Of a stretch of 64,000 bases of DNA, positions 61,692 to 64,000 are shown piece after piece. Each line of letters opens with the position of its first letter. The first letter of the stretch is position 1. Made by a program: the position numbers and the translations under genes. The notes under the pieces were generated by a model, which was not told where the DNA came from, made no database searches, and was given only the letters and a program-made list of their open reading frames with translations. The DNA comes from an uncultured Alphaproteobacteria bacterium (lineage in GTDB: Bacteria > Pseudomonadota > Alphaproteobacteria > Micropepsales > Micropepsaceae): the NCBI GenBank assembly GCA_903857685.1, contig CAIOFO010000070.1, positions 1 through 64,000 of the forward strand, written 5' to 3'.

Positions 61692-61767
61692 GGGGCCATA
61701 GCTCAGCTGGGAGAGCGCCTGCATGGCATGCAGGAGGTCAGCGGTTCGATCCCGCTTGGCTCCACCA
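61692..61767 (+). tRNA. tRNA-Ala (anticodon GGC)
   Basis: A 76-base cloverleaf with encoded CCA: acceptor GGGGCCA/TGGCTCC (one G-U), D arm GCTC-AGCTGGGA-GAGC, anticodon stem CCTGC/GCAGG with loop ATGGCAT (anticodon GGC at 61725-61727), five-base variable loop, and T arm AGCGG-TTCGATC-CCGCT. Reads GCC and GCT alanine codons. It lies 43 bases after the TIGR02300 gene. Confidence 0.97.
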
Positions 61768-61837
61768 TTTCCCGCCAATCACCAATCTTACCGACCCGCA
61801 CCGCCCTCACCGGGCGGGAAATGGTGGAGCCAAGCGG
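61752..61837. repeat. 25-bp perfect inverted repeat copying the tRNA-Ala 3' end
   Basis: The left arm (61752-61776) covers the last 16 bases of the tRNA, including the CCA, plus nine bases beyond it. The right arm (61813-61837) is its exact reverse complement. They are separated by a 36-base loop. No U-tract follows the right arm. Confidence 0.92.
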
Positions 61838-62012: not shown

Positions 62013-63137
62013 CTACGCCAACGCATTCTTGACCGTCCCCTCCACCTTGTAATTGAAGCTGATGGAGATGCGCGGGCTCTTGCCGCCATGGGGTTCGACG
62101 CCGTGACGCAGCCAGCTTTCCCACAGGAATAGATTTCCCGCCTTGGGCCGCATGGCGACGACGTCGCGGTTTTCCGGCCGTGCCGTCTTGGCGCGCGGCG
62201 GAGCCGACATCATCAATCCCGTACGCGGATCCTCGAAATAGAGCGCCGCCCCGCCCGGCGGCACGCTCACATAATAAGTGCCGCTGATAGCGGAATGGGG
62301 ATGGATATGCGCCGGGTGCGAGCCGGCTTCCTGCAGGACATTGACCCAGATGCTGTCCAGAACAAATCGCCGTCCCTGCATGTCGAATTCAACCGCCCGG
62401 GCGAAGGCCGCGATATGGCGACCCAGATTTTCGACCAGGGCGGCAAATACCGGAGCGCGGCTGGGCAAATCGTAGATCGAGGCATAGGAGGTATAGCCGC
62501 CGCGAAGGCCGTCCCGGGACCAGGCGCGCCCGGCCTCATCCTCCGCCGCGAGCTTGAGGCACGCCGCTTCCAGTTCGGCGTGCAGCGAAACGCCGAGCGG
62601 CGCGCCGTAGATGCTGGTGGGAAACAGCTTGTGGATTTCCGGCTGCAGCGCGGGCTGCGCGGTGATGGCGCTGGCAACGGCGATGTTCCGGGCCGGCTCC
62701 TTTCCGGTATCGGCGCGATAAAGGGCCGCGAAATCGAACGTGTCCAGATTCAGGGGCGGCAGGCCGCCTTTTTGAATTGTGTCGGCGGCAATGTCGCGAA
62801 GATGGGGAAAGAGCGCCGTGGGAGCGTCCACCAGAAGCGCCGATTGCACCGCGTCGGCGGGAATATTCTGCAAGCGGAACAGGCCGGCATAGGTCAATTC
62901 CAGGACAAAGCCCGACGCCCCGCCTTCCCTGGAATTGGCGCGCAATTTGATCTCGACTTCGTGATGTCCGTCATCGGCGCGCCGGGTGACCAGATCGCAG
63001 CCCAGATCAACCTGGCGCTTGAACGCCAGGCCAGCGGGACCGCCTTCATTCTTGAAGGATTGCTCTTTCACGTAATGGCTGACGAGCGTGAGGTTGCCCC
63101 CATTGCCGCCGCCCGCTGCATTGTCCCCGCTTTGCAT
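62013..63137 (-). CDS. SecB-like domain fused to a 2OG-Fe(II) oxygenase domain
   Basis: About 374 residues. Residues about 19-141 resemble the export chaperone SecB: HYVKEQSF, HHEVEIKLRA, LELTYAGLFRLQNIP, LFPHLRDIAADTIQKGG, then a segment ending FDFAALYR. Residues about 171-364 match the TIGR02466 / 2OG-FeII_Oxy_5 family: LFPTSIY at the start, HIHPHSAISGTYYV (His 277, 279, 281), FEDPR (Asp303), LRHGV (His345) and RISISFNYK (Arg356 as likely 2-oxoglutarate contact). The ATG at 63137 has AGGGG/AGGGA upstream; an ATG at 63206 is possible. Substrate unknown; probably cytoplasmic, since no signal peptide is seen. Confidence 0.8.
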   Translation of the reverse strand: MQSGDNAAGGGNGGNLTLVSHYVKEQSFKNEGGPAGLAFKRQVDLGCDLVTRRADDGHHEVEIKLRANSREGGASGFVLELTYAGLFRLQNIPADAVQSALLVDAPTALFPHLRDIAADTIQKGGLPPLNLDTFDFAALYRADTGKEPARNIAVASAITAQPALQPEIHKLFPTSIYGAPLGVSLHAELEAACLKLAAEDEAGRAWSRDGLRGGYTSYASIYDLPSRAPVFAALVENLGRHIAAFARAVEFDMQGRRFVLDSIWVNVLQEAGSHPAHIHPHSAISGTYYVSVPPGGAALYFEDPRTGLMMSAPPRAKTARPENRDVVAMRPKAGNLFLWESWLRHGVEPHGGKSPRISISFNYKVEGTVKNALA

Positions 63138-63272
63138 AGTCCCTGCCCCTATGGCCTTGCGGGCCGCGCCTGCCGTCCCTACCACTTCCGCCCCCTCCCC
63201 CGCCATATTTCCGACAAGACAAGCCAGTACCCGCGGGCCTAGAATTTTACCGGCCCTTTCCGGACAATTATT

Positions 63273-64000
63273 TTGACCGCCATCCTCGACGCCCGCACCC
63301 TTCCGGCCGGAACGGTCCTGACCCCCGACCTCGCCATCATTGGCGGCGGACCGGCCGGCATTTCACTGGCGCTGGCAATGGAGGGCAGCGGCCAGAAAGT
63401 CCTGCTGCTGGAATCCGGCGGGATGAATTTCGATTCCAGGGATCAGTCCCTGTATGGCGGCAGCCAGAGCGGCGTCGCCTATACCGCGCTGGATGGCGGG
63501 CGCCTGCGTTTCCTGGGCGGCAGCACCAATCACTGGGGCGGCTGGTGCCGGCCGCTGGACGCGATTGATTTCGAGACGCGGGACTGGGTGCCCCATTCCG
63601 GCTGGCCGATCGGCCGCCGGGAGATCGAGCCCTATTTCGCCCGCGCCCAGTCGCTGGTCGAGGCCGGTCCCTGGATCTATGACGGCGCCGACAGCATGGT
63701 GACGGACAATGGCCCGATGCTGCCACTGGACAAGGGCGGCATCTACACCACCTGGTTCCAGTTCTCGCGCACGCGCGGCGATATCCTGCCCACCCATTTC
63801 GGCCAGCGCTATCAGGACGATCTCAGGCGCGCCGCCGGAGTGACGCCGCTGTTTCACGCCAATGTCACCGGCATCCGCCTGGCGCGGGATGGCGGGCATG
63901 TGGACCATCTGGATATCGCCACGCTGACGCCCAGCGGCAGCGCCGGCAACCGTTTCCAGGTCAAGCCGCGCTATGTCGTGCTGGCCTGCGGCGGCATGGA
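63273..64000 (+). CDS. GMC-type FAD-dependent oxidoreductase, 3' end outside the window
   Basis: The first 242 residues of a flavoprotein. The FAD-binding loop is LAIIGGGPAGISLALA, followed by the acidic end VLLLESGG and the GMC-like segment GGSTNHWGGWCRPLD. The putative start is TTG at 63273 with no clear SD; no ATG is available after the in-frame TAG at 63240. It diverges from the SecB/2OG-oxygenase gene, 135 bases between the chosen starts. GMC enzymes oxidise alcohols or sugars; the substrate here is unknown. It stays open through base 64000. Confidence 0.85.
   Translation, partial: MTAILDARTLPAGTVLTPDLAIIGGGPAGISLALAMEGSGQKVLLLESGGMNFDSRDQSLYGGSQSGVAYTALDGGRLRFLGGSTNHWGGWCRPLDAIDFETRDWVPHSGWPIGRREIEPYFARAQSLVEAGPWIYDGADSMVTDNGPMLPLDKGGIYTTWFQFSRTRGDILPTHFGQRYQDDLRRAAGVTPLFHANVTGIRLARDGGHVDHLDIATLTPSGSAGNRFQVKPRYVVLACGGM

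Follow-up and report, generated by a model that had tools for sequence, protein, structure and literature searches.

Background

The known roles of SecB lie in protein export, in type I secretion and in the control of toxin-antitoxin systems. In export SecB, residues Asp20 and Glu24 are part of an acidic SecA-binding cluster (PMC6377645), and mutants in this cluster are defective in SecA binding (PMC4257090). In M. tuberculosis, the SecB that serves a toxin-antitoxin pair is altered at the same two positions, 20 and 24 (PMC6377645). This protein, Rv1957 (structure 5mtw), is separate and is encoded beside its toxin-antitoxin pair. The TIGR02466 oxygenases (PF13759) are widespread in Alphaproteobacteria and have distant relatives in cyanophages; a substrate for them was not found in the literature searched.

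The window analyzed here is a stretch of 64,000 nucleotides of one contig (C70) of an uncultured member of the Micropepsaceae (Alphaproteobacteria), whose draft genome comprises 3.0 Mb in 160 contigs. It carries a gene in which a SecB domain precedes a TIGR02466 oxygenase, an enzyme that stands alone in related bacteria. The preliminary description of this DNA did not know of any described SecB-oxygenase fusion, and none turned up in the literature or the collections searched; as far as these show, the architecture is new. That such an enzyme is naturally joined to a domain binding unfolded polypeptides hints directly that the TIGR02466 substrate may be a protein, and targeting an enzyme would be a further role for SecB.

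Architecture of the fusion gene

The gene and its parts are as follows.

62013..63137, minus strand: SecB-oxygenase fusion gene, 374 amino acids, a single open frame with unbroken coding periodicity
62709..63092, minus strand: SecB domain, residues 16-143 (PF02556, E=1.3e-28; AlphaFold model matches SecB structures 1qyn and 1fx3)
63051..63065, minus strand: changes in the SecA-docking cluster, residues 25-29 (E. coli SecB 20-24), Asp20 to Glu and Glu24 to Lys
62634..62708, minus strand: linker, residues 144-168 (about 25 residues), with no start codon in frame
62043..62633, minus strand: TIGR02466 2OG-Fe(II) oxygenase domain, residues 169-365 (E=2.1e-65; PDB relatives 3bvc and 2rg4)
62301..62309, minus strand: His277-Ile278-His279, putative metal-binding motif, both His invariant in 46 relatives (role inferred)
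62070..62105, minus strand: His345 to Arg356, putative distal metal ligand and putative 2-oxoglutarate-binding Arg, conserved in relatives (role inferred from the fold)

The frame of 374 codons contains neither stop nor frameshift, and G+C content by codon position is of the coding type in the SecB part (0.69/0.44/0.70), in the linker (0.70/0.52/0.91) and in the oxygenase part (0.65/0.50/0.77), so that the single uninterrupted frame reported earlier stands. The start at 63137 agrees with the N-termini of ordinary SecBs; an alternative start at 63206 would give a longer protein of 397 amino acids. Between residues 103 and 224 the frame contains no ATG, GTG or TTG, and a complete oxygenase would thus be made only within the fusion.

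Profile searches covered both domains nearly end to end, indicating that each is essentially complete. PF02556 scored 100.1 bits on residues 16-143 (cut-off 26; profile positions 8-137 of 141) and TIGR02466 scored 220.3 bits on residues 169-365 (cut-off 62.5; positions 1-200 of 201). The two halves were also modelled separately with AlphaFold, from alignments of 47 rows each, with pLDDT values of 80.4 (SecB half) and 87.5 (oxygenase half). The model of the SecB half retains the long helix of the SecB fold; its top matches were the SecB structures of E. coli and H. influenzae (1qyn/1fx3; E about 2e-8, probability 1.00), followed by a weaker match to Rv1957. The oxygenase half matched 3bvc and 2rg4 at Z about 26, both uncharacterized proteins that are also its relatives in sequence. 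The SecB-like N-terminal fold and the complete TIGR02466-type oxygenase noted in the preliminary description were thereby borne out, and the thought that the N-terminal part might resemble SecB no better than random folds does not apply. The fusion itself is real and both folds are confirmed.

The SecB half

With a score above the curated cut-off, a complete domain and the SecB fold, the N-terminal half belongs to the domain family PF02556, and it shares fold, length and most core positions with canonical export SecB, including the ordinary SecB of the same genome (C105:70546-70998). It differs from canonical SecB in its fused enzyme and in 8 changed residues among 22 invariant positions, which include Asp20 to Glu, Glu24 to Lys, Pro38 to Arg, Arg112 to Asp, Arg119 to Gln and Asp120 to Lys. 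These positions are given in E. coli numbering; the residues named at 112, 119 and 120 are those of alphaproteobacterial SecBs. For Asp20, Glu24 and Glu77 the numbering agrees with that published (PMC6377645). The other 14 invariant positions (64%) are retained, compared to 45% agreement with the consensus at the most variable columns.

Asp20 and Glu24 are unchanged in all 46 ordinary SecBs, and the cluster formed by positions 20, 24 and 77 reads Asp, Glu, Glu in each of them, versus Glu, Lys, Glu in the fusion. The acidic SecA-docking cluster of export SecB is therefore not intact, with Glu77 as the residue retained. Scores also fell below the NCBIfam equivalog cut-offs for export SecB (73.8 bits vs 102.8 for TIGR00809; 108.5 vs 143 for NF004392). 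As both the equivalog scores and the SecA cluster depart from those of export SecB, the SecB half is not to be called an export SecB. That it still serves SecA, with the enzyme merely carried along, would be in line with the retained fold and Glu77, but the substitutions at positions 20 and 24, the low equivalog scores and the presence of an ordinary SecB elsewhere in the genome make this highly improbable.

The SecB half is either reshaped or relaxed. Its changes fall in the SecA cluster and elsewhere among the invariant positions, whereas the oxygenase half has stayed conserved (see below), so it probably represents a chaperone domain put to a new use, not an export SecB plus an enzyme. The 8 lost invariant positions fit relaxed constraint as well as they fit repurposing. 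The combination of a changed SecA cluster with a conserved enzyme half is new relative to the earlier reading of this gene. Rv1957 is likewise a repurposed SecB fold with altered SecA-docking residues; unlike Rv1957, the fusion has no toxin-antitoxin genes beside it, its neighbours being a tRNA-Ala and a FAD-dependent oxidoreductase gene (C70 ends 0.9 kb upstream).

The oxygenase half and a proposed function

The oxygenase half keeps 39 of the 41 positions that are invariant in 46 relatives (95%), compared to 29% agreement with the consensus at the most variable columns, and is, judging from this difference, under purifying selection. Of the positions conserved at 93% or more, 52 out of 56 are kept, including His274, His277, His279, Asp303, His345 and Arg356 (invariance of His277 and His279 from alignment A3 of 46 relatives). 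By score and conserved residues the C-terminal half is thus a TIGR02466 member, resembling the ordinary enzyme of the same genome (contig C19, L086:602-1195) as well as 3bvc and 2rg4 throughout, with all putative active-site residues retained. The ordinary host copies of both genes keep 95-100% of such invariant positions.

Outside TIGR02466, the nearest folds were P. putida prolyl-4-hydroxylase (Z 17.0), PHD2 (Z 16.4) and SnoN (Z 16.2). The two peptidyl prolyl hydroxylases share the double-stranded beta-helix fold (Z 16-17) at 12-18% identity. The sequence HxH at 277-279, the putative metal ligands, is family-wide in TIGR02466 relatives, while peptidyl prolyl hydroxylases presumably have HxD here (PHD2 aligned by eye). 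A small-molecule epimerase, SnoN, reaches almost the same score, so the likeness does not fix the substrate, and the modelled fold may be taken as a lead and not as substrate proof.

We tentatively propose, as the likeliest reading though at slightly less than an even chance, that the fusion acts as a tethered peptidyl hydroxylase uncoupled from SecA and aimed at unfolded polypeptide. In this scheme the SecB half would hold an unfolded polypeptide for hydroxylation by the Fe(II)/2-oxoglutarate oxygenase joined to it; with SecA docking weakened or lost, clients would not be passed to the Sec translocon. The completeness of both domains in one frame, with an oxygenase that lacks its own start codon, is consistent with this proposal, as are the conserved enzyme half (His277, His279, His345 and Arg356 among its residues), the SecB fold with its altered Asp20/Glu24, and the peptidyl prolyl hydroxylases as nearest folds outside the family. 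Against it stand the retained Glu77, the lack of a TIGR02466 substrate in the literature searched and the lack of an orthologue (see below). We infer the polypeptide substrate, the oligomeric state, the loss of SecA binding and any activity of the fusion. The preliminary description suggested that the oxygenase hydroxylates proteins that are nascent or unfolded, or that the SecB part leads it to a client; either would be plausible. With lower probability, the fusion may be the first chaperone-guided protein hydroxylase: independently of the Sec pathway, its SecB-derived module would capture non-native polypeptides and hand them to the 2OG oxygenase covalently joined to it.

A comparable arrangement in the same genome also speaks for the proposal. 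A protein of 601 amino acids (C23, L186:1035-2840) ends in a 2OG-FeII_Oxy_5 domain at its C-terminus, preceded by many TPR repeats, and long frames matching it in a similar way were seen in many genomes of the genus. Like the fusion, it joins an N-terminal protein-binding module to an oxygenase of the same Pfam family; it differs in that the module is TPR instead of SecB and in that the oxygenase is distant (29% identity). The Pfam family of TIGR02466 may thus take up N-terminal protein-binding modules, and this distant relative shows that such a module, here a predicted one, on an oxygenase of this type is already a known kind of arrangement.

The SecB half could instead be a mere scaffold for oligomerization or solubility, with the oxygenase doing the job of the stand-alone paralogue and no client being targeted. 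The lower constraint on the SecB half (64% of invariant positions kept, vs 95% in the conserved enzyme) and its intact fold, long helix included, would suit such a role. However, 14 of the 22 SecB invariant positions are still there, and client binding, a general property of the known SecB-fold proteins, might be expected of it by analogy; we consider the scaffold explanation unlikely on balance.

Distribution and origin

The preliminary description proposed a search for the same domain order in other genomes. Such a search was made in the genus, class and phylum and in phages, plasmids and viral contigs, and no second example came up. The fusion was not seen in 68 other genomes of the genus, nor among the 385 genomes sampled from the class and the 398 sampled from the phylum; searches of phages, plasmids and viral contigs gave single domains or nothing. 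A pattern scan across 84,980 species genomes, which finds close relatives only, did not show it either. The fusion is so far a singleton from one draft genome. Of 96 genomes examined from the order, nearly all have a single SecB, and two full-length SecBs are found in the host only, with a partial second match in G092 and G063. A secB-oxygenase operon as source of the fusion was not seen in relatives, where the two genes, on shared contigs, lie more than 100 kb apart.

In maximum likelihood trees the ordinary host copies of both genes are sister to those of G024. The SecB half of the fusion falls at the base of the genus on a branch of 2.36 changes per column and the oxygenase half inside a subclade of the genus on a branch of 1.02. 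The SecB half has a median identity of 44% to the genus, compared to 66% among ordinary SecBs, and the oxygenase half one of 54%, compared to 63% among ordinary ones. Simplest would be the reading that both genes were duplicated, fused and then changed fast, the long branches leaving their exact placement unsure; duplicates of secB and the TIGR02466 gene of the host lineage would have been joined in one frame between the tRNA-Ala and the FAD oxidoreductase gene. Horizontal gain from outside the genus is unsupported, both halves lying at or within the genus, with placement unsure on such branches. The long branches, the altered SecB positions and the occurrence in one genome would also fit a duplicate fusion that has no selected function as a fusion and is decaying. 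An open frame over 374 codons and an oxygenase half apparently under purifying selection speak against decay, which we regard as decidedly unlikely.

The frameshift or assembly error raised in the preliminary description as a possible source of the fusion is judged unlikely. The idea that two genes were artificially joined during assembly or binning gains some room from a draft of 160 contigs and from the position of the gene, 0.9 kb from the end of C70 that lies upstream of it. It is nevertheless very improbable: ordinary, separate copies of both genes are present on other contigs, both domains are complete and in frame across the junction, and neither half is close to any ordinary copy, whereas short branches would be expected had two ordinary genes been joined into a chimera. 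The three C70 genes tested for their closest relatives, which we take to be cmk, rpsA and a TIGR02300-type gene, are closest to G091 or G024. The same holds for three neighbours of the ordinary secB on C105, a gene adjoined by putative dnaQ- and coaE-like genes. The aroA gene on C70 is the single copy in the genome and has its best match in G090 (80%; G024, 77%). C70 thus appears to belong to the lineage of the host genome; contamination or a binning error is judged unlikely, as most of the tested genes of C70 and C105 share G091 and G024 as closest relatives (aroA being closest to G090).

The tRNA-Ala locus

Two features flank the fusion gene.

61692..61767, plus strand: tRNA-Ala (GGC), the downstream neighbour that anchors the conserved synteny
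63273..64000, plus strand: divergent FAD-dependent oxidoreductase gene that runs off the window (Pfam DAO, 1.3e-8)

The gene order aroA, TIGR02300-type gene, tRNA-Ala is common to relatives. In G013 and G087 a FAD oxidoreductase gene follows within a few hundred bases after the tRNA-Ala, and in G035, G090, G079 and G030 a gene that by its motif is short-chain-dehydrogenase-like lies just before the FAD oxidoreductase gene; the fusion is absent from this place in all six.

A perfect inverted repeat of 25 nt is present at 61752-61776 and 61813-61837 of the window. Its left arm consists of the 3' end of the tRNA-Ala plus 9 bases, and its right arm lies 36 nt downstream. No further close copy was found in the genome itself. 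Some genomes of the genus are without the repeat; many others have it, with matching changes in both arms (e.g. TTTCCCGCC/GGCGGGAAA and ATTCCCGCC/GCGGGAAT). In the close relative G091, transposase-like frames (L148:11688-12850), presumably of the IS3 type, adjoin the tRNA-Ala, which suggests that this site may receive insertions.
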